Positions 907-15,042 of a stretch of 64,000 nucleotides of DNA are shown in pieces. The notes below the pieces were generated by a model. That model was not told the origin of the DNA. It worked only from the letters and a program-made list of their open reading frames with translations, and made no database searches. Positions within the stretch are counted from its first letter, which is position 1. Each line of letters begins with the position of its first letter. The stretch covers positions 339,556-403,555 of the forward strand of contig NZ_BLJO01000005.1 of assembly GCF_009932555.1 (NCBI RefSeq), written 5' to 3'. The stretch is from Steroidobacter agaridevorans. GTDB lineage: Bacteria > Pseudomonadota > Gammaproteobacteria > Steroidobacterales > Steroidobacteraceae. The translations under genes and the position numbers were made by a program.

Positions 907-1835
907 CAGAATGCCTCCTTGCGGCGCGCGACCAAATACTGCGCGAACGCGGCGATCGCGATGAAGCCGAACAGGATCTGACCGGCCGCCACGGCGTAGC
1001 CGACGTCCCAACGAGTGAAGCCCACCTCGAAAAGGAACAGCACCATGGGCCGCGACGCGTTGTTCGGTCCGCCCTGGGTCATCAAGTACGCCTGACCGAA
1101 CAGCTGGAATTGCAGCACTACTTCGATGATCAGCACGAGCGCGAACGTGCGTCGGATCGATGGCAGCGTGACGTGCCACAGCGTCTTCCAACGACCGGCG
1201 TTGTCGAGCGCCGCGGCTTCGTACAACTCGCGAGGCACCTGCTGTAACGCTGCGAGGAACAGCATCATCGGCAATCCGATGCACCACCAGATCGTGGTGA
1301 TCGCAATGGCCGGCAAGGCCAGCTCGGCGCTGCTCAGGAAAGCGATCGGCGGACGGCCGAAGGCTTCCAGCAGATTCGCGAGAAAGCCGCCCTCGGGCGC
1401 GAACACCACCTTCCACAGCAGCGTCACGATAGTCACGGACAGCACTGAGGAAGAAAAGAAGACGCCGCGCAACACGGCGGCCGTGCGCGTCTGGCGGTTT
1501 AACGCGAGCGCCAGGCCGAGGCCGATGATCGCCAACGCCGGCACCGTGAGCACAATGAAATAGAACGTGTTGCCGACGGCGCCGAGGAACACTTGGTCGT
1601 TAGATAGCCGTTCGAAATTCTCAAAGCCGACGAAGCGTCGGCCGCCGAAGAGATCGGCTTTGTGCAAGCTCAACCAGAAGCCGGCGAAGAGCGGGTAAAC
1701 GAGTAACGCCGCGTACAAGAACAGAAACGGAGCCACATAGAGCATGTGACTCCAACGACTCTGCTGAGCACCGGCGCGCGCGGGTTGAACGCGCGTCCGG
1801 CCCAGATCGCTCAGCTGTCCAGCCGCGGTGCTCAC
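906..1835 (-). CDS. Carbohydrate ABC transporter permease (MalF type)
   Basis: A 309-residue inner-membrane permease, the MalF-like partner of the next gene. A first helix (about residues 30-50, MLYVAPFLFLYAALLVYPLF) is followed by a periplasmic segment, then helices and the EAA loop (ELYEAAALDNAGRWKTLWHV). The GTG start at 1835-1833 overlaps the ATPase stop as GTGA, so the two are probably translationally coupled. Length and topology fit CUT1 sugar importers. The specific substrate cannot be read from the protein. Confidence 0.93.
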   Translation of the reverse strand: MSTAAGQLSDLGRTRVQPARAGAQQSRWSHMLYVAPFLFLYAALLVYPLFAGFWLSLHKADLFGGRRFVGFENFERLSNDQVFLGAVGNTFYFIVLTVPALAIIGLGLALALNRQTRTAAVLRGVFFSSSVLSVTIVTLLWKVVFAPEGGFLANLLEAFGRPPIAFLSSAELALPAIAITTIWWCIGLPMMLFLAALQQVPRELYEAAALDNAGRWKTLWHVTLPSIRRTFALVLIIEVVLQFQLFGQAYLMTQGGPNNASRPMVLFLFEVGFTRWDVGYAVAAGQILFGFIAIAAFAQYLVARRKEAF

Positions 1836-2938
1836 GTCGCGCTCCCGTCCAGCACAGCGTGGTGGCCGCGGTCCTGATCATCGAATAGATGCGCCTCGCT
1901 GCCGTCGAACTTCACGCCGACCTGATCGTTGATGGCTACGCGGCTGTTGCCGGCGTCTTCGGCCACGATGGTCGCCCCATCGGCCAGCTTTACGTACACA
2001 AGCGTGCGATCGCCCAATCGCTCGACGAACTGAGCCACGCCCACTGTCTCGCCCTGCCCGGCCGGACAAATGTCCAGCGACTCCGCTCGAATACCCAGCT
2101 TGAACGACTGGGACGCGGGCAGCGACGCCTTGTCGATGCGCGTCGCGACGATCGCACCGTCCGGCAATCGCGCCGATACAAATCCATTCGGCCCATCGCT
2201 CAACTCGACCGGCGAGAAATTCATGGCCGGCGTGCCGACGAAACTCGCGACAAACGTGGTCGCGGGTCGCGAATAGATCTCCATCGGCGTGCCGATCTGC
2301 TCGATCTTGCGGTTGTTCATCACGACGATGCGATGCGCGAGCGTCATCGCCTCGATCTGATCGTGCGTGACAAAAATCATCGCCGCGTCGACGCGCTGGT
2401 GAAGTTGTGCGATCTCCAGGCGAGTGCGCACGCGAAGCGCGGCGTCGAGGTTGGAAAGCGGCTCATCGAACAGGAACAGATGCGGCTCTTTGACGATGGC
2501 GCGGCCGATCGCCACTCGCTGACGCTGACCACCGGAAATCTGCCCGGGCTTGCGATCCAGCAAATGCGTGATCTCCAGCATCTTCGCTGCCGCATCGACG
2601 CGCTTCTCGATCTCCGCATCGGGCAATCGAACGTTGCGCAAGCCGAACGACATGTTCTCGCGCACCGACATGTGCGGATAAAGCGCGTAGTGCTGAAACA
2701 CCATGGCGACGCGTCGCTCGCCCGGCGCCAGCTGATCGACGCGGCGATCGCCGATCCAGATCTCGCCGGCGTCGACCGACTCCAGGCCAGCGATCATGCG
2801 TAACAACGTCGACTTGCCGCAGCCCGACGGGCCCAGGAACACCATGAACTCGTGCGGCCGGATGCTCAGCGACACATTGTCGATGACCGTGGCGGCCCCG
2901 AAGGTCTTGGTGACGTTCTTTAGCTCGATACCAGGCAT
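1832..2938 (-). CDS. ABC transporter ATP-binding protein (MsmX/UgpC type)
   Basis: A 368-residue cytoplasmic ATPase for the sugar importer. It shows Walker A (GPSGCGKST), the ABC signature (ISGGQRQRVAIGRA), Walker B (LFLFDEPLSNLDA) and the H-loop (VTHDQ), followed by a C-terminal TOBE-type region from about residue 240, as in MalK/UgpC/MsmX. The start is the ATG at 2938-2936, giving MPGIELKNVTK. In-frame sequence upstream of it belongs to the intergenic space. It lies 35 bases downstream of the GH43 gene and overlaps the MalF-type permease. Confidence 0.95.
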   Translation of the reverse strand: MPGIELKNVTKTFGAATVIDNVSLSIRPHEFMVFLGPSGCGKSTLLRMIAGLESVDAGEIWIGDRRVDQLAPGERRVAMVFQHYALYPHMSVRENMSFGLRNVRLPDAEIEKRVDAAAKMLEITHLLDRKPGQISGGQRQRVAIGRAIVKEPHLFLFDEPLSNLDAALRVRTRLEIAQLHQRVDAAMIFVTHDQIEAMTLAHRIVVMNNRKIEQIGTPMEIYSRPATTFVASFVGTPAMNFSPVELSDGPNGFVSARLPDGAIVATRIDKASLPASQSFKLGIRAESLDICPAGQGETVGVAQFVERLGDRTLVYVKLADGATIVAEDAGNSRVAINDQVGVKFDGSEAHLFDDQDRGHHAVLDGSAT

Positions 2939-2973
2939 GAGAAATCGCCGATGAAAAGTGAGATGGGGCGGAG

Positions 2974-4020
2974 CTAGGACTGCACGACCGGCCAGCCGTC
3001 GGCAGTCCATTCAATCGGCGAGATCCGCAGCGTCGCCCGGCCGTCGAGTTCCGCGTCGTACGCGTGGTACACGAGATAGTCGCGATCGCCATCGCGCAGG
3101 ATCGCTTGATGCCCGGGGCCCCGAAACCGCCGGTTGCCTCGAATCACGACGGTGCCGTAGCCATCCATTTGCGACTTACCGTCACGGCCCACGTAAGGGC
3201 CAGTCACCTCGCGCGAGCGCCCGACGACGACGTAGTACGAACTGCTCGCTCCTCGGCAGCAGTAATCGAACGACGTGAACAAATAGTAGTAGCCGTTGCG
3301 CTCGACAAGGAACGGCGCTTCGATCGCGGCCGGCGCGTTTTCCGGCGCGGGCCGCCGGGCCAAGGAATATTTGCGCGAGTCATTCGAGATCGGCTTGCCG
3401 GTCGCGGGATCGAGCGGGAACAGCTTAATGCCGCTCCAGAAACTGCCGAGGCAGAGCCAGTGCTTGCCCTCGCGATCGATCAGATGGTTCGAGTCGATGG
3501 CATTGAAGTCGTCCTCGAGCTCGGACTTCACGACCAGCCCGCGATCTTCCCATTTGAAATCCTTGGACGCCCGATCCAATGTCTTGTTGGTCACCAGGCC
3601 AATGACGGAATGATTCGAGCCGAATCGCGAACACGAGTAGTAAAGGTGATAGAGCCCGTTGAAGTACGCGATATCGGGCGCCCACATGCCGCGCGTGCCG
3701 GGCACCGCGTCCTGCGCCCATTTGGGAATCTCATCGAACACACGGCCGTTGAGCTTCCAATTCACCAGATCCTTGGACGTGCGCCAGGGCAGCAGGCCGG
3801 TCGGATCATGGGCCTGACCGGTGCAGAATAGATGATAGGTATCGCCCTGCTTGACGATGCAGGGGTCATGCACGGGCGAGAGATCGCCGGCGAGGCGGTC
3901 GTTGAGACTTTGCTCGGGGGTAGCGGCGCTGGCCCAGACGCCGGTGGACAATCCCAGCGTCGAGCCCATGAACAGCGAGGCGCGTAGCAGGTCGCGCCTG
4001 TGGACGCTCACGTTCCGCAC
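2974..4020 (-). CDS. GH43 arabinan endo-1,5-alpha-L-arabinosidase, Tat/Sec exported
   Basis: A 348-residue exported glycoside hydrolase family 43 protein, probably cleaving arabinan in the periplasm. An N-terminal RRDLLRASLF segment followed by a hydrophobic run suggests Tat export. Family motifs in order are VHDPCI (general base Asp near residue 52), MWAPDI, EAPFLV (acid Glu) and PGHQ. The open frame continues upstream only to a TTG at 4086, so I chose the GTG at 4020, which has GAGG five bases before it. It is the first gene of the transport operon, and a palindromic operator candidate lies at 4073-4101. Confidence 0.88.
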   Translation of the reverse strand: MRNVSVHRRDLLRASLFMGSTLGLSTGVWASAATPEQSLNDRLAGDLSPVHDPCIVKQGDTYHLFCTGQAHDPTGLLPWRTSKDLVNWKLNGRVFDEIPKWAQDAVPGTRGMWAPDIAYFNGLYHLYYSCSRFGSNHSVIGLVTNKTLDRASKDFKWEDRGLVVKSELEDDFNAIDSNHLIDREGKHWLCLGSFWSGIKLFPLDPATGKPISNDSRKYSLARRPAPENAPAAIEAPFLVERNGYYYLFTSFDYCCRGASSSYYVVVGRSREVTGPYVGRDGKSQMDGYGTVVIRGNRRFRGPGHQAILRDGDRDYLVYHAYDAELDGRATLRISPIEWTADGWPVVQS

Positions 4021-4072
4021 GTGAGCCTCGACTCGCCGTCGCGGCTTTGCATGGGTCCCCCGGTCATTCACG

Positions 4073-4101
4073 ATTGTTCTGAGCAATATAACTCAGACAA
4101 T
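4073..4101. promoter_or_regulatory. Palindromic operator candidate between GH43 and gntR genes
   Basis: An imperfect inverted repeat: ATTGT-T-CTGAG, an 8-base AT-rich spacer, then CTCAG-ACAAT. The minus strand reads TTGTCTGAGT at 4100-4091, identical to the sites at 5278 and 15015. It lies between the divergent GH43 operon and the GntR gene and could control either or both. Binding by the adjacent GntR protein is inferred from sequence sharing and location. Confidence 0.65.
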
Positions 4102-4303
4102 TCATGGTAACGGCTTTCGATTTGTCAGGCAAACCGTGCCGCGGCATTTTGCAGATTGGCCGGGCGCCGACGCAATCGGCGCGGGCGATCCGGTGCAAAT
4201 CGTTGCGGATCCTGCGAAATCCGCGCGCGGCGTGCGTAAACTACTGTCGTATGACGCTGCGCGCCGGGCCAAATACCCGCAGGCGTCGCGAGGGAAATCA
4301 TCG

Positions 4304-5080
4304 ATGTCGAGCAAAAAATCATCCGCGGCGAGGGCCAATGCACGGGCCCGACGCAAATCGTTGCGGCTGCATGGAACCATCGCGCGTGACCTCGGGGTGT
4401 TGATCGTGTCGGGCCGCTACAAGCCCGGCGACATCCTCAATGGCGAGATCGATGCGAGCGATCGGCTGCAGGTCTCGCGCACCGCCTATCGCGAGGCAGT
4501 CCGTATCCTCGCGGCGAAAGGCCTGGTGGAATCGCGGCCGAAGGTGGGCACGCGCGTCAGTCCGCAAGCCCGCTGGCACATGCTCGATCCCGATGTTTTG
4601 TCGTGGATTTTCGAGTTCGAGCCGGACGACAACCTGCTCGCGAATCTGTTCGAGCTGCGCAAGATCGTCGAGCCCGAGGCCGCCGCCCTGGCTGCATTGC
4701 GCCGGACCAATGAAGAACTGGAAGCCATGGAGAAGGCGCTCCAAGGCATGGCCGCGCACACGCTGGCCAGCGAAGCCGGCCGGCTCGCCGACCAGGAATT
4801 CCACTCGGCGATGCTGCGCGCGAGCGGCAACGCCTTCATCGTGTCGTTGACCAGCGGCGTCGGCGCCGCGGTGTCGTGGACGACGATCTTCAAGCAGCGG
4901 CACAACCCTCTGCGCCGCGACCCGATCCCCGATCATCAAAAGGTGTACGAGGCCGTCAAAGCCTCCGACCCGAAAGCCGCCCACGCGGCGATGTTGAACC
5001 TGGTCGAGCTCGCGCAGCTCGATACGACCAACTCGCGCAAACCCAAGGTCGCCAAGACTGCGACTTCGGCGCGCAGCTGA
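4304..5080 (+). CDS. GntR-family (FadR/FCD) transcriptional regulator
   Basis: A 258-residue cytoplasmic repressor-type protein. The N-terminal winged helix-turn-helix spans about residues 25-90, including VSRTAYREAVRILAAKGLV and SRPKVGTRV. An all-helical FCD ligand domain follows, with the metal-binding-like residues D (LADQEFH) and H (IPDHQ). FCD members usually sense sugar acids or keto acids. The ATG at 4304 has a GAGGGA about ten bases upstream; a longer reading from 4136 adds low-complexity sequence that does not resemble the family. Flanked by arabinan and arabinose operons, it probably responds to an arabinonate-pathway intermediate. Confidence 0.9.
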   Translation: MSSKKSSAARANARARRKSLRLHGTIARDLGVLIVSGRYKPGDILNGEIDASDRLQVSRTAYREAVRILAAKGLVESRPKVGTRVSPQARWHMLDPDVLSWIFEFEPDDNLLANLFELRKIVEPEAAALAALRRTNEELEAMEKALQGMAAHTLASEAGRLADQEFHSAMLRASGNAFIVSLTSGVGAAVSWTTIFKQRHNPLRRDPIPDHQKVYEAVKASDPKAAHAAMLNLVELAQLDTTNSRKPKVAKTATSARS

Positions 5081-5252
5081 CGTAACCCGCCCCCGAAACT
5101 CCCGCTGGTCGGCCCGAATTGAGGCTGGCCAGCGATGGATTTTGCGTCCGAGTCCCCCACCTTTCGTTGCACGGTCTTGTTGACGGCGGCCTCGGATGTC
5201 TTAATGCCGCAGGCGTTGTTAACGCTACCTTGCGCCCAGCGAGCCCTGGCAA

Positions 5253-5287
5253 TTGCCCGCCACGGCATACTGGGATATTGTCTGAGT
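5253..5287 (+). promoter_or_regulatory. Promoter with overlapping GntR operator for the KGSADH operon
   Basis: A -35-like TTGCCC (5253-5258) is followed after 17 bases by a -10-like TATTGT (5276-5281). The 10-mer TTGTCTGAGT at 5278-5287 overlaps the -10 and the start region, a position expected for a repressor site. The leader then runs about 35 bases to the ATG at 5322 with a GGAGA Shine-Dalgarno. The remaining 5081-5252 stretch shows no gene. Confidence 0.6.
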
Positions 5288-5321
5288 AAATCAACGGTAC
5301 AAGTTTAGGCGGAGATCTCCC

Positions 5322-6890
5322 ATGCCCCTGACCGGTCAGCTATTCATCGGTCGCGAACGCGTCGCGACCTCGCAAACCTTTCGCGCAGCGAACCCCACTA
5401 CCGCCTCATTGATCGACCCGCCCTTCAGCTCGGCCGGCGCCGCCGAAGTAGAGCGCGCCTGCCAGCTGGCCAGCGAAGCGTTCGATCAATACCGCGCCCT
5501 GGATAACGAAACGCGCGCGAAATTCCTGGAAACCATCGGCGATCGCATCATGGCGCTGGGCGACGAGCTGCTCGAGCGCGCCAATGCCGAGTCCGGTCTG
5601 CCGCTCGCGCGTCTGACGGGTGAGCGCGGCCGTACCGTCGGTCAGCTGCGTCTGTTCGCGGACGAGTTGCGCAAAGGCGGCTGGCAGGGCGTTCGCATCG
5701 ATCCGGCAATGCCCGATCGCAAGCCGTTGCCGCGCGCCGACCTGCGTCAGCGCAAAGTGCCGCTCGGCCCTGTCGTTGTATTCGGCGCCAGCAATTTCCC
5801 GCTCGCGTTCTCAGTCGCCGGCGGCGACACCGCCTCCGCGCTCGCGGCTGGCTGCCCCGTCATCGTCAAAGGTCACTCGGCGCATCCGGGCACGAGCGAA
5901 CTGGTCGCGCAGGCCATCAGTGAAGCGGTCGCTCAGTGCGGTCTGCATCCGGGCGTGTTCTCGCTGTTGAACGGCGATAAGCGCGACCTGGGCGCAGGCT
6001 TGGTCGCCGATCCGCGCATCAAGGCCGTTGGCTTCACGGGCTCGCGTGGTGGCGGCGTCGCGTTGATGAAGATCGCCGCGGCTCGCAAAGAGCCGATTCC
6101 TGTTTACGCCGAGATGAGCAGCGTGAATCCGGTGCTGTTGCTGCCCGGTGCACTTGCCGCTCGCGCCGAAGCGCTCGGCAAGGAATTCGTCGGATCGCTC
6201 ACCATGGGCTCGGGTCAGTTCTGCACGAACCCCGGTTTGGTGTTCGCGCTCGAAGGTCCGCACGTGGATACGTTCATTCAATCGGCTGCCGCAGCGCTCG
6301 GCGGCGCGGCCCCTCAGGTCATGTTGACCGCTGGCATCTACGATGCGTTCCAAAAAGGCGTGGATCGTCTCGCGACTAACAAGTCCGTGAAGACGATTGC
6401 TCGCGGCGCCGATACTCAAGGTGCGAACTGCGGCCGCGGCGCTTTGTTCTCCGTGCCTGCCGGCGCACTGACACACGAAATCGCCGAAGAAGTGTTCGGT
6501 GCTTCTTCCGTCATTGTCCGCTGCGCCAACGAAGCGGAGCTGGTCGATGCACTGGAAAAGCTGGAAGGCCAGCTCACCGCCACACTGCACGTCACCGAGC
6601 AGGATTATCCGATTGCGCAGAAGCTGCTTCCCACGCTGGAACGCAAGGTGGGCCGCATTCTCGCGAACGGCTGGCCGACCGGTGTCGAGGTCTCGCACGC
6701 CATGGTTCATGGCGGTCCGTACCCGGCGACGTCCGACAGCCGCACCACCTCGGTGGGCACGCTCGCGATCGAACGTTTCCTGCGCCCCGTCTGCTATCAG
6801 GACCTTCCGGATGCACTGTTGCCGCCGGCCCTGAAGCGTGACGCTCAATCTGCCACGCCGCATCGCTTCGACGGCGTCTACCGGAGCTAA
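5322..6890 (+). CDS. Alpha-ketoglutaric semialdehyde (2,5-dioxovalerate) dehydrogenase
   Basis: A 522-residue cytoplasmic NAD(P)-dependent aldehyde dehydrogenase. The oxyanion Asn is in FGASNFP (N158), the general base Glu in YAEMSSVNP (E264) and the catalytic Cys in GSGQFCTN (C301). The GFTGSRGGG cofactor loop is present. N-terminal [10 protein letters not shown] and overall length match the ketoglutarate semialdehyde subgroup rather than betaine or fatty aldehyde enzymes. It would perform the last step of non-phosphorylative arabinose degradation, forming alpha-ketoglutarate. It is first in a four-gene operon, one base ahead of the FAH gene. Confidence 0.9.
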
Positions 6891-6891
6891 T

Positions 6892-7884
6892 ATGAGTTTG
6901 CGTTTGATACAGGTGCGCGCTGCCGATGGGCAGCGCCTGGTGGCCGCCATCGACGACAACGGCGTCGCTCGTAAAGTGAAAGATTGCGTCAGCACTTATC
7001 AGCTGGCGCAAACCGCGCTGGACGGCGGGACGTCGCTGGAAAAGTGCGTGGCCACGCGGCTCTCCGACGAACGGCTCGATCTGGAGGAGTTGCAGAACTG
7101 GAATCGTCTGCTCGCTCCGATCGATCATCCGGACGTTGCGCACCTGTATCTCACCGGCACCGGCCTGACGCATCTCGGCTCGGCCGAAGGTCGCGACAAG
7201 ATGCACAAGGCCGCTGCCGGCGGCACGCTCACCGACTCGATGCGCATGTTCAACATGGGCCTGGAAGGCGGCAAACCTGCCGCCGGCCAGGTCGGCGTGC
7301 AGCCCGAGTGGTTCTACAAGGGCGACGGCTCTTGCGTGGTCGGCACAGGTGAGGCGTTGCCCTCACCTGACTTCGCGCTCGATGGCAGCGAGGAGCCGGA
7401 GATCGCCGGCATCTACATCATCGACGCCGCGGGCAATCCGCGTCGCATCGGTTTCTGTCTGGCCAACGAGTTCTCGGATCACATCACCGAGCGTGGCAAT
7501 TACTTGTGGCTGGCGCACTCCAAACTGCGCCATGCCGCGTTGGGCGCGGAGTTGCTCGTCGGCGAGTTGCCTGCCGACGTTCGCGGCATGAGCCGCGTGC
7601 TTCGCGATGGCAAGACGCTGTGGGAAAAGCCGTTCCTCACCGGCGAAGCCAACATGTCGCACACCATCGCGAACCTCGAGCATCATCATTTCAAGTATCG
7701 ACTGTTCCGTCGGCCTGGCGACATTCACGTGCATTTCTTCGGCACGGCGACGTTGTCGTTCTCCGAAGGCATTCAAACCAAGGAAGGCGATGTGTTCGAG
7801 ATCGAAGCGCCGCCGTTCCGCCTGCCGTTGCGCAATCCCCTGAAGCGCAGCGAAGCATCGACCGTGGCTGTGCAGGCGTTGTAA
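6892..7884 (+). CDS. AraD1/GguC-family FAH-fold protein, probable ketodeoxyarabinonate dehydratase
   Basis: A 330-residue cytoplasmic protein whose N-terminus (MSLRLIQVRAADGQRLVAA) and C-terminal half are characteristic of the GguC/AraD1 group of the fumarylacetoacetate hydrolase superfamily. Acidic metal-binding residues occur around GIYIIDAAG and LANEFSDH. The likely reaction is dehydration of L-2-keto-3-deoxyarabinonate to alpha-ketoglutaric semialdehyde. This is assigned because the pathway has every other step and no classical dihydrodipicolinate synthase-type dehydratase is present. The ATG at 6892 directly follows the previous stop, so the two genes are probably coupled. Family confident, exact reaction inferred. 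Confidence 0.82.
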   Translation: MSLRLIQVRAADGQRLVAAIDDNGVARKVKDCVSTYQLAQTALDGGTSLEKCVATRLSDERLDLEELQNWNRLLAPIDHPDVAHLYLTGTGLTHLGSAEGRDKMHKAAAGGTLTDSMRMFNMGLEGGKPAAGQVGVQPEWFYKGDGSCVVGTGEALPSPDFALDGSEEPEIAGIYIIDAAGNPRRIGFCLANEFSDHITERGNYLWLAHSKLRHAALGAELLVGELPADVRGMSRVLRDGKTLWEKPFLTGEANMSHTIANLEHHHFKYRLFRRPGDIHVHFFGTATLSFSEGIQTKEGDVFEIEAPPFRLPLRNPLKRSEASTVAVQAL

Positions 7885-7887
7885 GTC

Positions 7888-8814
7888 ATGAGCCCGATCA
7901 AACTCGCCATCGTCGGCTTGGGCAAGATCGCTCGCGATCAGCATCTGCCCTCGCTGGCCGCCAATCCGAACTATCAGCTGGTGGCCGTCGCCAGCCCGCA
8001 CAACAAGCTCGAAGGCACGCCGAGCTATCCCAACATCGAGACCATGCTGCGCGAGCAGCCGGAGATCGAAGCGGTTTCGCTGTGCTGCACGCCACAGGTT
8101 CGTTACGAAATCGCGAACTATGCGTTGGAGCAGAACAAACATGTGATGCTGGAGAAGCCGCCCGGCGCGACGCTGAACGAAGTCGCGGGCCTGATGGATC
8201 TCGCCCAACAACGCCGGCTCGCTTTGTTTGCTACCTGGCATTCGCGCGAAGCCGCGGCCGTCGAACCGGCGCGCGATTGGCTCGTCGGTCGCAACATTCG
8301 CAAAGTGCAGGTGACCTGGAAGGAAGACGTGCGCGTGTGGCACCCGGGCCAGGCATGGATCTGGAAAGCCGGCGGTCTGGGTGTGTTCGATCCTGGCATC
8401 AACGCGCTGTCCATCATCACTCGCATCCTGCCGCAGCCTCTGGTGCTCAAAGACGCCGAGCTGCACGTCCCCTCGAATTGTGAAACGCCCATTGCCGCCG
8501 AACTGACCTTGCAGGGTCCGGGCGGATTGCCGGTGCGCGCGGAATTCGATTTCCGCCAGACCGGCCCGCAGAGCTGGGACATCGACATCGAAACCGACGA
8601 CGGTCATCTGCTGCTCTCCAAAGGCGGCTCGGTGATGCACGTCGACGGCAAACAAACGGTGTCCGCGCCGGATCGCGAATACGCGAACCTGTATGCGCGT
8701 TTCGCCCCGCTGGTTCGCGAGCGTCGCATGGATGTCGATCTCGCCGCCTTCCGCCTGGTCGCCGATGCATTCATGTGCGGCCGGCGCTCCGTCGTCGATC
8801 CCTTCATCGAATAG
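7888..8814 (+). CDS. Gfo/Idh/MocA-family L-arabinose (D-galactose) 1-dehydrogenase
   Basis: A 308-residue cytoplasmic oxidoreductase with an N-terminal Rossmann fold ([15 protein letters not shown]) and the EKPPG signature (Lys90). Asp168 and Asn172 in FDPGINALS sit where bacterial L-arabinose/D-galactose 1-dehydrogenases carry catalytic residues. Length matches the Azospirillum-type arabinose dehydrogenase closely. It would oxidise L-arabinose to L-arabinono-lactone with NAD(P), the entry step of the pathway. It begins three bases after the AraD1 gene. Confidence 0.88.
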
Positions 8815-8825
8815 AGGACAACAAG

Positions 8826-10394
8826 ATGCCGATTCTTCAGGGGGCTCTCCGCCTGACCGCCGCGCTCGGTCTGGCGACGCTCAGTTTCGTTCCTTTGGCC
8901 GCCGGCGCCGCCGAATCGGCCGCCGTCTCGGTGACCATTCAGGCCGACAAGCCGGGCGCCAAGATCGATCGCAATCTCTACGGCCAGTTCGCCGAGCACC
9001 TGGGTCATGGCATTTACGAAGGCATCTGGGTCGGCGAGGACTCGTCGATTCCGAACACGCGCGGCTATCGCAATGACGTCGTCGCTGCGTTGAAGAAGTT
9101 GAAAGTGCCGGTCGTGCGTTGGCCCGGCGGCTGCTTCGCCGACGAATATCACTGGCGCGAAGGCATCGGCCCGCGCGACAAGCGGCCGGTGAAAGTGAAC
9201 ACGCACTGGGGCGCGGTCGAAGAGCCGAATACTTTCGGCACGCACGAGTTTCTGGATTTCGCCGAACTGATCGGCGCCGACGCTTATGTGTCCGGCAACG
9301 TCGGCTCCGGCAGCCCGCAGGAAATGGCGGAGTGGGTCGAGTACATCACCTCCGATACGAAGTCGACGCTCGCCGAGCTGCGTCGTAGGAACGGCCGTGA
9401 GAAGCCCTGGAAGCTGCCGTACTTCGGTGTCGGCAACGAAACCTGGGGCTGCGGCGGCAACATGCGGCCGGAATATTTCGCGGATCTCTACAAGCAGTTC
9501 GCGACCTTCATCAAAGCCCCGCGGGACAACACTCCGTTGAAGATCGCCAGCGGCGCGAATGTCGCCGACTATCACTGGACCGAAGTGATGTTGTCGCAGG
9601 CGGCCAAGCACATGGATGCCTACTCGCTGCACTACTACACGTTCCCCGGCCGTTGGGAGAACAAGGGTGCGTCGACCGGCTTCACCGAAGATGCGTGGGC
9701 GTCGACGCTCAATCACGCGGTGCGCATGGAAGAATTGGTGACCAAGCACTCGGCCATCATGGACAAGTACGACCCGGACAAGAAGGTCGCGCTGTATGTC
9801 GACGAGTGGGGCACCTGGTACGACCCGGAACCGGGCCGCAACCCGGGCTTCCTGTATCAGCAGAACACGCTGCGCGACGCGCTGGTCGCTTCGCTGACGC
9901 TCGATATTTTCCATCGCCACGCCGACCGCGTGAAGATGTCGAACATCGCGCAGATGGTGAACGTGCTGCAGGCGATGATCCTCACCGACAAGGAGAAGAT
10001 GACGCTCACGCCGACGTATCACGTGTTCGAGATGTACATCCCGTTCCAGGGCGCGACTTCCCTACCCGCCGAAGTTCAGTCGCCGACGTACTCGCGTGGC
10101 GAGTGGTCGCTGCCGCAGGTGTCGGTGTCCGCTGCGCGTGATGTGAATGGCAAGTTGCAGATTGCGTTTACGAACGTCGATCCGAACAAGGGCGCTTCCG
10201 TGTCCGCGAAGATCAATGGCGCGAATGTGAAGTCGGCTTCTGGTCGCATCCTCACTGCATCTGCGCTCGATGCACGCAATACGTTCGATAAGCCTGAGGC
10301 TGTGAAGCCGGCGCCGTTCAAGGCGTCGAAGAAGGGAAATGAGCTCCGCGTTGAACTGCCGCCGAAGTCGGTGGTGGTTGTCGCTGTAGAGTAA
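8826..10394 (+). CDS. GH51 alpha-L-arabinofuranosidase, exported
   Basis: A 522-residue glycosidase with a Sec signal peptide ending near AAGAAESA, so it acts in the periplasm or outside. The GH51 core shows [23 protein letters not shown], the acid/base Glu205 in [11 protein letters not shown] and the nucleophile Glu327 in YVDEWGTW, followed by a beta-sandwich tail. It would release arabinofuranosyl units from oligosaccharides made by the GH43 enzyme. The ATG at 8826 has an AGAGGAC Shine-Dalgarno; the gene lies 11 bases after the dehydrogenase and ends the operon before a strong hairpin. Confidence 0.93.
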
Positions 10395-10419
10395 AGGTTC
10401 TCTCAGAGGCTCAGTGGTT

Positions 10420-10453
10420 CGCGGTGCCGGGGTGGGTCCTCCCCGGCACCGCG
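10420..10453. terminator. Strong hairpin after the GH51 operon
   Basis: A perfect 13-bp inverted repeat (CGCGGTGCCGGGG paired with CCCCGGCACCGCG) around an 8-base loop, 26 bases after the GH51 stop. It lacks a T-tract on either strand, so it may be a Rho-assisted terminator or an mRNA-stabilising 3' structure. The rest of 10395-10596 shows no gene. Confidence 0.55.
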
Positions 10454-10596
10454 CCCTCTCGGTCGCTCATCAAAACCCTGAATCCGCGCCGTCGTGCCGG
10501 ATGTTCTGTTGACAGGCTCACGCGAGCGCTGAGATCGTATGGGCCAGGAATAATCCGGCACAGGATTGATCGTCGGCCTTTCAAGGAGGGATCCCC

Positions 10597-10941
10597 ATGA
10601 ACGTTTTGCTTCGATCCGCGGTCCTCGCAGTCGCATTCTGGTTTTCCGGAAACGCGATGGCTACGTGCACATCGATTTCTTGTGAGGATGAATCGATTCT
10701 CGCGATGATGACTACGTCCACCGGCGACGTCTACGTGAAAACGAGCGGCGACATGAGCAGCCTCAGCTGTACGCGATCACAGGGAGTGTATGCAACGCTG
10801 ATTCATGGAACAGAAGGATTCAAGCAGATCTACGCCACGTTGCTCGCGCACTATATGGCGGGCATGCCGATCTCGATCAGAATCAACGAGAACTCGATCG
10901 GCTGCACCATCGGTTACGTTTATACCGAAGCCGGCTCCTGA
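10597..10941 (+). CDS. Small secreted protein of unknown function
   Basis: A 114-residue protein with a clear signal peptide (MNVLLRSAVLAVAFWFSGNAMA) and a mature part of about 90 residues. The mature part carries four cysteines (CTSISC near the new N-terminus, then SLSC and IGC), which could form two disulfides in the periplasm. A strong AAGGAGG precedes the ATG by eight bases, so translation is likely. I do not recognise a named domain. It sits alone between the GH51 operon and the convergent lactonase gene; no role in arabinose use can be argued beyond location. Confidence 0.72.
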   Translation: MNVLLRSAVLAVAFWFSGNAMATCTSISCEDESILAMMTTSTGDVYVKTSGDMSSLSCTRSQGVYATLIHGTEGFKQIYATLLAHYMAGMPISIRINENSIGCTIGYVYTEAGS

Positions 10942-10960
10942 GGCGGGGCATGCCTCCGTC

Positions 10961-11833
10961 TCAGCCGCCAAATAGTCCGGGCGGCAATCCACGCACCCCG
11001 CCGGCATCCACTTCGAACAGCGAACCGGCGAATGTTTCCTTACTCCGATCGAGTCCCTTCGCCGCCGAAGTAACAAACATCCGATCCAACTCCGGTCCCG
11101 CAAACGCGATGCTCGTAATCTGCGGCGCCGGCAATCGAATCTCCCGATCCAGCTTCGCGTCCGGCGACCAGCGGCTGATCCGCGAGCCGCCCCAGTGGGC
11201 GATCCAAAGGAACCCTTCGGCATCCGTCGTCATCCCATCGGGGAACCCGAGGTCGTCGGGGAACTTCAGCCACTCCTTCTTGTTGCTGAGCTCGCCCTCC
11301 GGCGACAGATCGAAGCGATAGATCGTCCGCGCCGGTGTATTGGTGTGATACATGAAGTCCTGCTTGGGACTGAACGTGGGTCCATTCGTCACCTTGTAGC
11401 CCTCGTCGACGCGCAGCACGCTCATGTCCGGCCGCAAGCAATACAGCGAGCCGGTGGTCTCGACGATGGCGGCATCCATCGTGCCCGCCCAGATCTGCCC
11501 GTGACGATCCACCTTCGCATCGTTCAAGCGATTGCCCGGAAGCTGCGGCTCGGGGTCGACGATCAGCCGCAAAGCCAGCGGCTCCAGGTCCAACTCGTAG
11601 AAGCCGCTTTGCAAGCCCGCGATGAAGCCGGGTTTACTGCTGCGCTCCACCACCCAACCGATGTTCTCGGGCATCGACCAACGGCGGATGCTGCCGTCGG
11701 CGAGCGAATAGCGATAGAGGAAGTGAGAAAGGATATCCACCCAGAAAAGGGCGTTGTGCTTTGCAGACCACAGCGGACCCTCGCCCAGCTCGTCCTTCTC
11801 CTCACGAGCAATGACTCGCCATGCTTCCGCCAT
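10961..11833 (-). CDS. SMP-30/gluconolactonase-family L-arabinonolactonase
   Basis: A 290-residue beta-propeller lactonase. The metal ligands typical of SMP-30 are visible: Glu in LGEGPLW, Asn in RLNDAKVDRHG, Asn in KVTNGPTFS and Asp in FPDGMTTDAEG. No signal peptide, so cytoplasmic, hydrolysing L-arabinono-lactone made by the dehydrogenase. The ATG at 11833 is preceded by GAGAGGG. It follows the dehydratase gene but is separated from it by an intrinsic terminator, so it may depend on read-through or its own promoter. Confidence 0.88.
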   Translation of the reverse strand: MAEAWRVIAREEKDELGEGPLWSAKHNALFWVDILSHFLYRYSLADGSIRRWSMPENIGWVVERSSKPGFIAGLQSGFYELDLEPLALRLIVDPEPQLPGNRLNDAKVDRHGQIWAGTMDAAIVETTGSLYCLRPDMSVLRVDEGYKVTNGPTFSPKQDFMYHTNTPARTIYRFDLSPEGELSNKKEWLKFPDDLGFPDGMTTDAEGFLWIAHWGGSRISRWSPDAKLDREIRLPAPQITSIAFAGPELDRMFVTSAAKGLDRSKETFAGSLFEVDAGGVRGLPPGLFGG

Positions 11834-11855
11834 GTTCTTACCCTCTCTACAAATG

Positions 11856-11891
11856 AAAAAGCTCCCGCGCAAGATGACCTCGCGCGGGAGC
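11856..11891 (-). terminator. Intrinsic terminator between dehydratase and lactonase genes
   Basis: On the minus strand a perfect 10-bp stem (GCTCCCGCGC with GCGCGGGAGC, 11-base loop) is followed directly by five T residues. It begins 14 bases after the dehydratase stop and lies 23 bases before the lactonase ATG. It should reduce transcription of the lactonase relative to the upstream genes. Confidence 0.78.
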
Positions 11892-11904
11892 CCGAGAGTT
11901 TAAA

Positions 11905-13716
11905 TCAGTGATTGTGTCGCGGCACGCCCTTGGTCTGGGCGAGGCGCTGATACTTCACTGCGGACTCGAGCACGGCGCCCGTCTCGGCCTGGCCGATGTC
12001 GGCGCGCTGCATTTCCTGCCATGGCGTCTGGCTCGGGGGATACGGGAAGCCGCCGGCGTCCTTCAACGCCTGACGGCGCTGATTCAGCTCTTCCTCGCTG
12101 ATGAGGATATTCGCCTCGCCCTTGCGCAAGTCGATGCGCACGCGGTCGCCCGTCTTGAGCAACGCCAGGCCACCGCCCACTGCTGCTTCCGGTGAAGCAT
12201 TGAGAATCGACGGCGAGCCCGACGTACCCGACTGCCGACCGTCACCGATGCACGGCAAGTTGTGAATGCCCGCTTTGATCAGGTTCACCGGCGGACGCAT
12301 GTTCACCACTTCCGCCGCGCCCGGATAGCCAACCGGGCCCGCGCCGCGCATGAACATCAGCGTGCTCTCGTCGATGCCCAACGACGGGTCGTCGATACGC
12401 GCGTGATAGTCCTCCGGACCATCGAACACGATGGCGCGCCCCTCGAACGCTTCCGGATCTTTCGGATTCGACAGATAGCGCGCGCGGAACTCGTCGGAGA
12501 TCACGCTCGTCTTCATGATCGCCGAATCGAACAGATTGCCGCGCAGGACAGTGAAGCCGGCGCGCTTCTTCATCGGCTCTTCAAACGGCTTGATCACCTT
12601 CGTATCGATGATGCTCGCACCGCGGCAGTTGTCGCCCAGCGAGCTGCCGTTCACCGTCAGCGCCTTCTCGTTGATCAGGCCCTGACGCATCAACTCGGCC
12701 ACAACGGCGGGCACGCCACCGGCGCGATAGTAGTCCTCGCCGAGATATTCGCCGGCCGGCTGCAGGTTCACGAGCAAAGGGATATCCAAGCCGTACTTCT
12801 GCCAATCGTCGATGGTCAGCTCGACACCGATGTGCCGGGCGAGCGCATTCAAATGAATCGGCGCGTTGGTGGAGCCGCCGATCGCGGAGTTCACGCGAAT
12901 CGCGTTGATGAAAGCTTCGCGAGTGAGGATGTCCGACGGCTTGCGATCGGCCCACACCATCTCGACGATCTGCTTGCCCGTGAGATACGCGCATTCCTGG
13001 CGATCGCGCAGCGGCGCGGGAATGGCCGCCGAGCCAGGCAGCGACATGCCGAGCGCCTCGGTCAGGCTGTTCATCGTCGTCGCCGTGCCCATGGTGTTGC
13101 AGTACCCGGTCGACGGCGCCGACGATGCGACCAACTTGATGAAGCCCTGATAATCGATCTCGCCCGCCGCCAGCAACTCACGAGCACGCCACACGATGGT
13201 GCCCGAACCCGTGCGCACGCCTTTGTACCAACCGTTGAGCATCGGGCCGACCGACAGCGCGATGGCCGGCATGTTCACCGTCGCCGCCGCCATCAAACAG
13301 GCGGGGGTGGTCTTGTCACAGCCGACCGTGAGCACGACACCGTCGAGCGGATAGCCGAACAACACCTCCACCAGACCGAGGTAGGCGAGGTTGCGATCCA
13401 AACCCGCAGTCGGACGCTTGCCGGTTTCCTGAATCGGATGCACCGGAAACTCCAGCACGACGCCGCCCGCCTCGCGAATGCCTTCACGCACGCGCTCCGC
13501 CAGCACCATGTGATGACGATTGCACGGCGACAGGTCGCTGCCGGTCTGCGCGATGCCGATGATGGGCTTGCCCGACTGCAGCTCTTGCAGCGACAAGCCG
13601 AAGTTCATGTACCGTTCCAGGTACAGCGCCGTCATGTCCGCATTGGCGGGATCGTCGAACCAGGCGCGCGAGCGCAGGCGACGCGTTGCGGACGGATTGG
13701 AATTGGATGGGCTCAT
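11905..13716 (-). CDS. IlvD/Edd-family L-arabinonate dehydratase
   Basis: A 603-residue cytoplasmic iron-sulfur dehydratase. Cluster cysteines are Cys65 (LSPCNRHH), Cys133 (TVGCDKTTP) and Cys206 (TGYCNTMG). Their spacing of 68 and 73 residues matches what I recall for characterised rhizobial sugar-acid dehydratases with a [2Fe-2S] cluster. The Ser-rich [10 protein letters not shown] loop near residues 494-502 carries the catalytic serine of the family. It converts L-arabinonate to L-2-keto-3-deoxyarabinonate. It lies 24 bases after the epimerase gene in the same operon. Confidence 0.9.
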
Positions 13717-13740
13717 GGGGTTCGCGTCAGGTTCGAAAGC

Positions 13741-14910
13741 TTAGGGAGCGGCGGAGAAACGCAGCACCATGGTGTTCACGTACGTCTGGCCGGGATTCAG
13801 GCGCGCGTTGGGGAAGTCGCTGCGATTCGGCGAGTCCGGAAACACTTGCGGCTCCAGACAGAAGCCATCGCCCTGCCGGTACACACGCTGGCTCTTGCCG
13901 GTGCTGGTGGCGTCCAGGAAGTTGCCTGAATAGAACTGCACGCCCGGCGCGTCCTGAAGCAACTCCAGTACGCGACCGGAGGTCGGCTCCTCGACGCGAG
14001 CTGCCGGCCGCAACTTCCCGGCCTCGCCGTCGACGATGTAGTTGTGATCGTAGCCACGACCGATGCGCAGCTGCTCGTCGCGGCCGTCACGAACGCGCTC
14101 GCCGATGGTATGAGGTTTGGTGAAATCGAACGCGGTGCCCGCGACAGCGCGGCGCTCACCCGTGGGAATCAGAGTTGCGTTGACTGGCGTGTACTTGCTC
14201 GCGAACAAGGTCAGGCGATGCCCGAACACGTCGGTGGGCGCCGCTTCACCCGCCAGGTTGAAATAGCTGTGGTTGGTGATGTTGACGATGGTCGGCTTGT
14301 CGGTCGTCGCGCGGTACTCGATCGACAGCTCGTTCTTGTCGTTGAGCGTATAGGTCGCCGTCACCTGCAGCTTGCCCGGATAACCGCCTTCGCCATCGGC
14401 GCTGCTATAGGTAAGCACCGCTTTGGCCGGCGAGCCGGCGCTGATGGACTCGATCTTCCACAGCACTTTGTCGAATCCCTGCTTGCCACCGTGCAAGTGA
14501 TTCGGGCCGTCGTTGGTCTCGAGCTGATACTGCTTGCCGTCCAGCGAGAACTTGCCGGCAGCGATGCGATTGGCGTAGCGGCCGACCGTCGCGCCGAAGT
14601 ACTGCGGCTGGTCCACATATTGTTGAGCGGTGGCATAGCCGAGCACCACGTCGGCGGATTTGCCGTTGCGGTCTGGCGCCTTCAACTCCTGAATGACACC
14701 GCCGAGCGCGAGGATGCGCACCGACATGCCCTTGGCATTGGCCAGCTCGACCGACTCCACTTTGCGGCCATCGGCCAGCGTTCCGAACTCGCCGCGACGG
14801 GCTTCCACCGCCCCCGCGACCGATGCACCCAGACTATTGACCACGAGCACTCCCACCAGCCATCGACCTGCCCTCCTGACACCCTCGCGCCGGTACTGAC
14901 CGGACGCCAT
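13741..14910 (-). CDS. Exported aldose 1-epimerase (galactose mutarotase)
   Basis: A 389-residue GalM-type beta-sandwich enzyme with a signal peptide (hydrophobic run WLVGVLVVNSLGASVAGA), so probably periplasmic. Family residues include GRYANRIAAGKF, the catalytic His in NHLHGGKQGFDK, His in NITNHSYFNLAG and the Glu of FCLEPQVFPDSPN. It would interconvert arabinose anomers before import or oxidation. I chose the ATG at 14910 (AAGG upstream) because it leaves a conventional signal peptide; a GTG at 14967 with AGGG is the alternative. It heads the epimerase-dehydratase-lactonase cluster. Confidence 0.88.
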   Translation of the reverse strand: MASGQYRREGVRRAGRWLVGVLVVNSLGASVAGAVEARRGEFGTLADGRKVESVELANAKGMSVRILALGGVIQELKAPDRNGKSADVVLGYATAQQYVDQPQYFGATVGRYANRIAAGKFSLDGKQYQLETNDGPNHLHGGKQGFDKVLWKIESISAGSPAKAVLTYSSADGEGGYPGKLQVTATYTLNDKNELSIEYRATTDKPTIVNITNHSYFNLAGEAAPTDVFGHRLTLFASKYTPVNATLIPTGERRAVAGTAFDFTKPHTIGERVRDGRDEQLRIGRGYDHNYIVDGEAGKLRPAARVEEPTSGRVLELLQDAPGVQFYSGNFLDATSTGKSQRVYRQGDGFCLEPQVFPDSPNRSDFPNARLNPGQTYVNTMVLRFSAAP

Positions 14911-15005
14911 TGGGACCTTGCCAACCGCAGTGTTGCGGCCCGACGAAACTCGCTGTTCTTGTGTCACGAAAACCCTGGCCGGCGACTTGGATGGGACATT
15001 CTAAT

Positions 15006-15042
15006 ACTCAGACAAAATGTCATCAATTGTCTCGGCAGACAA
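15006..15042. promoter_or_regulatory. GntR operator cluster upstream of the epimerase operon
   Basis: The minus strand reads TTGTCTGAGT at 15015-15006, the same 10-mer as at the two other arabinose promoters. Twelve bases further out is a perfect palindrome TTGTCT-CGGC-AGACAA (15027-15042). Three half-sites of the TTGTCT/AGACAA type therefore lie within 37 bases of the region upstream of the epimerase operon and facing the amidohydrolase gene. Confidence 0.6.

Follow-up and report, generated by a model that had tools for sequence, protein, structure and literature searches.

The three operons of an arabinose locus in Steroidobacter agaridevorans are each preceded by the 10-mer TTGTCTGAGT, and the same locus encodes a GntR-family regulator with an FCD domain. 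The locus lies in the stretch of DNA analysed here, referred to as the window (64 kb of contig NZ_BLJO01000005.1). The 10-mer is very probably the core of the operator of this adjacent regulator, a dimer of which would repress the oxidative arabinose pathway, sugar uptake and arabinan/arabinogalactan-type enzymes until a sugar acid releases it. The positions of the sites, their conservation, their co-occurrence with the gntR gene and the match of part of them to a FadR-type core were read directly from sequence. They add up to a well-supported predicted regulon of a known type of gene control, with a mildly unusual, one-sided operator.

Position of the 10-mer in the window and the genome

The three copies lie at 4091-4100 (minus strand), 5278-5287 (plus strand) and 15006-15015 (minus strand). 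A previous sequence-only reading of the window had placed them there; the exact count agrees, and a scan permitting one mismatch still found three places and added none. In shuffled sequence, 0.08 copies were expected and none of 100 shuffles reached three. That reading had also judged three copies at exactly the three operon starts to be very unlikely by chance. Triplication is weak evidence and was dropped as the main argument, because 2,061 of the 52,420 distinct 10-mers of the window (strands joined) are present at least three times. It is position upstream of starts, not copy number, that singles out TTGTCTGAGT. Every copy lies outside predicted genes for only four of the 2,061 repeated 10-mers, and TTGTCTGAGT alone has each of its copies no more than 120 bp upstream of a start, with three or more different starts involved; this test relied on crude gene calls (50 genes in the window). 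A 9-mer, AACCCTGAA, also has three window copies upstream of called starts (10474, 43568, and 59379). It is probably not meaningful, with 34 copies in the genome versus 22 of the reversed word and no theme common to its three window places.

All three copies adjoin or overlap promoter-like hexamers, which were picked by eye and then verified by coordinate. Copy 1, between the operon of glycoside hydrolase family 43 (GH43) and ABC transporter genes and gntR, directly follows TACCAT (4104-4109), which is separated by 17 bp from TTGCCT (4127-4132; hexamers spanning 4104-4132, minus strand). Copy 2, before the aldehyde dehydrogenase operon, overlaps the -10-like TATTGT (5276-5281), as previously read; TTGCCC (5253-5258) lies 17 bp away (5253-5281, plus strand). 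Copy 3, before the epimerase/dehydratase operon, sits between TTGATG (15021-15026) and TAGAAT (14998-15003), again 17 bp apart (14998-15026, minus strand). Additional TTGTC-like half-sites occur near copies 1 and 3. Sites on or beside -35/-10-like hexamers suit repression.

The own genome contains 11 exact copies of TTGTCTGAGT, of which eight precede genes of one theme, two are coding, and one is ambiguous. Apart from the three window operons, the theme copies precede a GH43 gene with LamG domains (C2:111448), a GH43-AbfB gene (C7:201439, inside a long open reading frame (ORF) call yet before the conserved start), a TonB receptor beside GH53 (C2:515521), a GH39/LamG divergon (C3:496894; site retained in the related genome G011) and a sugar-type MFS transporter (C12:11262). 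The MFS gene was assigned to the theme because 57-78% identical MFS genes stand in arabinose clusters of relatives. The reversed word has eight copies; six are inside ORFs, and no called start follows any of the eight within 100 bp. Many copies in unrelated coding regions would have counted against an operator; clearly coding are C12:141128, inside an ORF, and C1:769221, in the gene of a third FCD GntR paralogue, and neither was kept as a site. The ambiguous copy, C1:232516, was set aside; a TonB receptor starts 47 bp downstream of it, but a different palindrome adjoins it and a short ORF may begin there.

Two observations belong to these excluded copies. TTGTCTGAGT is conserved within the third FCD GntR paralogue (L010:3222, corresponding to C1:769221; G011 C10:1245442; G002 C3:555228), which we take as a coding-sequence coincidence. 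Near C1:232516 (L009:3480-3520), another FCD GntR gene lies beside the TonB receptor, with the perfect palindrome AGTTGTAGTACAACT upstream of the receptor; this is probably a separate, self-contained regulator/receptor pair.

A looser word, WTTGTCTRAGWW, has 13 sites in the own genome versus 4 for its control. It adds a GH127 beta-L-arabinofuranosidase, a GH2 gene (its site overlapped by a divergent esterase ORF as called) and a TonB receptor that neighbours a GntR paralogue. Two further added sites, C9:418055 and C16:34962, had no fitting gene and were rejected. The predicted regulon extends beyond the window, and the site is longer and looser than the 10-mer.

Conservation, co-occurrence and recurrence of the site

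The search of related genomes proposed by the sequence-only reading showed that the sites recur at orthologous promoters. Eight GntR-bearing genomes of the same genus contained 41 WTTGTCTGAGWW sites, 31 of them, by our reading, at genes homologous to the theme set (G011, 7/9; G010, 8/8; G002, 5/6; G004, 2/2; G013, 2/3; G012, 2/7; G001, 2/2; G007, 3/4). The 31 include one TonB receptor of 29% identity, one GH43-like gene of 36% and three C10-type sites placed by orthology. The remaining 10 are coding, at unrelated genes or ambiguous, and one of them is 270 bp from a GH10 gene. In alignments of orthologous promoters, the site is the best-conserved promoter block. Seven aligned promoters of operon 3 have CATTTTGTCTGAGT in common, an invariant 14-bp block that contains copy 3. 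The dehydrogenase operon has TGTCTGAGT invariant in seven aligned promoters, and five GH43-LamG promoters have ATTTGTCTGAGTTATAAAG in common, with TTGCCA upstream. Copy 1 is kept beside GntR orthologues in four loci (L018-L021). P. agariperforans-type genomes have A instead of the initial T of the 10-mer in the dehydrogenase promoter.

Co-occurrence was assessed in 120 genomes of the family, with the GntR gene scored as present at E <= 1e-60 and AraD1 at E <= 1e-70. Site density was 0.61 per Mb in the 20 genomes with the GntR gene (60 sites, 98.9 Mb; control, 11) and 0.12 per Mb in the 100 genomes without it (36 sites, 310.8 Mb; control, 39). None of 20,000 label permutations reached this difference, and 1 of 20,000 did so when the own genome was left out; shared ancestry is uncorrected in both figures. 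Sites exceeded the control in 15/20 genomes with GntR versus 20/100 without, and most of the excess falls in the genus of the window. AraD1 was detected in 22 of the 120 genomes, including all 20 with GntR; the only two AraD1 genomes without GntR (G081 and G116) have no site.

The site also recurs in another class. A search of named genomes gave 47 loci, of which L107-L125 were used. Close GntR proteins occur in Peristeroidobacter agariperforans (98% identity), P. soli (97%), Steroidobacter gossypii (94%) and Povalibacter uvarum (79%). Proteins of 69-73% identity are encoded in ten Sphingomonas/Sphingosinicella loci and one of 63% in an alphaproteobacterial metagenome-assembled genome (together L114-L124). 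In these 11 alphaproteobacterial loci, GTCTGACT, TCTGACTA and TTGTCTGA rank 1-3 of 883 8-mers for intergenic enrichment, all words counted; TTGTCTGA is intergenic in 16/22 occurrences and its reversed word in 0/1. Across 18 loci (L107-L124), TGTCTGA is intergenic 33 times, and in 30 of these cases a gene with homology to the reference set starts no more than 350 bp away. Of the other three, one is near unmatched genes only and two are near no called start.

Regulator, operator and rival explanations

The gntR gene occupies 4304-5080 on the plus strand. Its product has an N-terminal GntR winged helix and a C-terminal FCD domain, both Pfam models being above cut-off (2.3e-11 and 1.2e-22, respectively), and these domains place it in the FadR/FCD subfamily of GntR regulators. 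Since the ligands of FCD domains are usually carboxylates, the sugar acids of the pathway are candidate effectors. A metal site of Asp and His residues is optional in this family. D163, H167 and H211 are invariant across 19 aligned GntR proteins, and the position expected for the fourth metal ligand is an invariant L233. The best solved match is PDB 7c7e (E 3.6e-28, residues 26-235). The predicted structure has a mean predicted local distance difference test score (pLDDT) of 67.6, and its DNA-binding half is poor. In the tree, sphingomonad proteins are near the clade of the window protein (19-row group, support 91/91, not starred), with several long branches, and C10-type paralogues, named here after the paralogue at C10:226158 (L063), form a separate clade (99/99).

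Pooled sites, conditioned on TGTCTGA, approximate WWTTGTCTGA[G/C]TWAT. TTGTCTGAGT would be the conserved core of this longer, looser site, which appears to be a one-sided relative of the FadR-subfamily palindrome. That palindrome has the core GTM-N0-1-KAC and the boxes TKGT and ACMA, whose GT and AC are 3 nt apart (PMC4494728). The published core is matched by GTC-N-GAC variants: GTC-T-GAC in part of the alphaproteobacterial sites and in the diverged L023, GTC-G-GAC in L022, and GTC-C-GAC in the second C10 site. The three window copies have the left TKGT box and lack the right ACMA box (AGT[A/T] in its place), and the right half in the genus is mostly GAGT or GAGA. In our own count in the 18 loci, 21 of 31 sites with a called start nearby point toward the nearest start.

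From these data we infer binding by GntR, the placement of its dimer, repression and the effector. The T of TCTGA would mark the centre of the bound dimer, which would cover or adjoin the -35/-10 elements and hold down the oxidative arabinose pathway, the uptake genes and the dispersed arabinan/arabinogalactan-type enzymes. Release would come from a sugar acid of the pathway, L-arabinonate or its keto-deoxy product. Dispersed sites before functionally linked genes and conservation at orthologous promoters are the marks by which a single-regulator regulon is recognized, and both were found at the level of sequence. The suggestion that the adjacent FCD GntR reads the 10-mer has gained in strength from these dispersed sites, the conserved footprints, the co-occurrence with GntR and the recurrence in another class.

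Several results weigh against this assignment. The own genome has 11 exact copies of TTGTCTGAGT and 8 of the reversed word, so the count itself is hardly informative. No site was found in 3 of the 20 GntR genomes (G065, G072, and G114), and L112 and L114 yielded no intergenic TGTCTGA site. GntR and AraD1 stand together in all 20 GntR genomes, which makes gene and pathway hard to separate. Because the alphaproteobacterial loci were fetched via the GntR gene, proximity to GntR in them follows from how they were selected. Among the 293 words ranked for the seven gammaproteobacterial loci, TTGTCTGA comes only 19th (8/11 intergenic); ATTGTCTG, GTCTGAGT and TGTCTGAG rank 9th-11th there, after words confined to one or two loci each. 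The main form of the site is without the C of the right half-site. The palindrome TTGTCNGACAA was rejected as the genus consensus, with 21 sites versus 46 of the reversed control in nine genomes on one strand (own genome, 2 versus 6; G012 opposite, 6 versus 1); one G007 TTGTCNGACAA site is the one beside GntR.

A chance repeat or general promoter element with no specific reader could account for a 10-mer that is one of 2,061 repeated words and whose copies overlap or adjoin -10-like sequence. Such an element should be enriched regardless of GntR, but genomes without the gene show no excess over control. With the conserved footprints, the specific gene theme and the unique placement of all copies upstream of starts, this explanation is hardly credible. 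It is also improbable that another transcription factor, encoded elsewhere for example, reads the site and that GntR is merely a neighbour from the same pathway. The deviation of the right half from the FadR-subfamily consensus and the near-constant association of GntR with the pathway genes would fit such a factor; the sites flanking GntR genes at many loci, the site excess tied to GntR genomes, the two site-free AraD1 genomes without GntR and the GTC-N-GAC core in diverged relatives, which is known for the FadR subfamily, argue for GntR itself.

Control by the GntR subfamily rather than by the adjacent protein alone deserves more weight, although we consider it somewhat less likely than not to hold. 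The C10 paralogue, 58% identical, may also read some or all of the sites, and control would then overlap or involve mixed dimers. Its neighbour is a TonB receptor with TTTGTCTGAGAAAT and TTGTCCGACAT upstream, its orthologues retain the site (L035-L037), and in G012 and G013 a C10-type GntR stands next to GH51 and GH127 with TTGTCTGAGT. On the other side, the two proteins belong to separate clades, and the observed C10 sites are mostly of the GAGA form, so that the two may read partly different sites. More doubtful is an extension of the operator proposal to an intrinsically one-sided, directional site, where an FCD GntR dimer, possibly a paralogue heterodimer, would read TTGTC and GA[G/C]TWAT, the unit having moved or persisted between Steroidobacter-type gammaproteobacterial and Sphingomonas-type alphaproteobacterial degraders of plant fibre.

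Genes of the locus and known systems

Operon 1 (minus strand) comprises the GH43 gene (2974-4086; Pfam 7.4e-52; longest ORF, true start probably further downstream), a MalK/UgpC-type ABC ATPase (1832-3010) and two permeases (906-1835, BPD_transp_1 1.1e-14; 58-1416, BPD_transp_1 8.2e-21 at residues 268-448, a longest ORF with the domain confined to its C-terminal part). Outside the window it continues with one ORF, which may be a solute-binding protein, and a second alpha-L-arabinofuranosidase (L066). Operon 2 (plus strand) encodes an aldehyde dehydrogenase (5322-6890; Aldedh 1.6e-45), an AraD1/GguC family protein (6838-7884; NF040903, 525.9 bits, cut-off 340), a Gfo/Idh/MocA dehydrogenase (7888-8814; 6.9e-18) and a GH51-type alpha-L-arabinofuranosidase (8775-10394; Alpha-L-AF_C 7.1e-54). 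Operon 3 (minus strand) encodes an aldose 1-epimerase (13741-14967; 6.7e-94), an IlvD/EDD dehydratase (11905-13716; 1.7e-100) and an SMP-30-type lactonase (10961-11872; SGL 2.9e-75).

This gene set fits an oxidative arabinose pathway. NCBIfam cut-offs were passed by AraD1, an aldose epimerase and a dihydroxy-acid dehydratase subfamily. The dehydrogenase is below the ketoglutarate semialdehyde dehydrogenase cut-off (85 bits versus 770) and the dehydratase below that for arabinonate dehydratase (520 versus 882); hence, both names, including the ketoglutarate semialdehyde dehydrogenase of the sequence-only reading, are presumed from context. In the relatives G010, G001 and G007, an ORF of 571-573 aa lies between gntR and the dehydrogenase operon (L077:1832-3547, L091:2294-4015, and L094:12032-13753); by Pfam that of G010 is a sodium:solute symporter, and a comparable ORF was not seen at this position in the window.

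If the assignment is correct, the regulator, its operator and a good part of its regulon would follow from sequence alone. Such a regulon would tie dispersed arabinan/arabinogalactan-type enzymes and outer-membrane receptors to the oxidative arabinose pathway, in two environmental bacterial groups for which no arabinose regulator was found in the literature searched. Sites could also assign transporters lacking a role, such as the MFS protein and the TonB receptors. In literature on arabinose or arabinonate with GntR, Steroidobacter or Sphingomonas, this regulator was not found described; most subscription papers and RegPrecise were outside this coverage and may describe it. Among the matches listed for the literal 10-mer, all were unrelated.

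DgoR-like proteins are sugar-acid regulators. PDB 7c7e, listed as a putative DNA-binding transcriptional regulator, is presumably DgoR; it has the same two-domain fold as the window protein and differs in pathway and by its distant sequence. AraC of enterobacteria controls arabinose use, and AraR of Bacillus is a GntR-LacI chimera; both resemble the window regulator in local control of arabinose use and differ from it in protein architecture (for AraR, PMC4494728). FadR/FCD systems have in common with the window system the FCD and GntR domains, the TTGT half-site, a divergent self-adjacent regulator and extra half-sites nearby, as well as, in the GTC-N-GAC variants, the GT-to-AC spacing of 3 nt (PMC4494728). 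They differ in AC[A/C]A, in place of which the genus of the window consistently has mostly GAGT/GAGA, the symmetric form not being enriched. The nearest described system is Halomonas AraR2, for which a role as GntR-family regulator of L-arabinonate use has been predicted (PMC5507952). Compared by description only, its regulon consists of the pathway and a TRAP transporter, without polysaccharide enzymes; like the window regulator, AraR2 belongs to the GntR family and is predicted to control an oxidative L-arabinose/L-arabinonate pathway that includes a lactonase.

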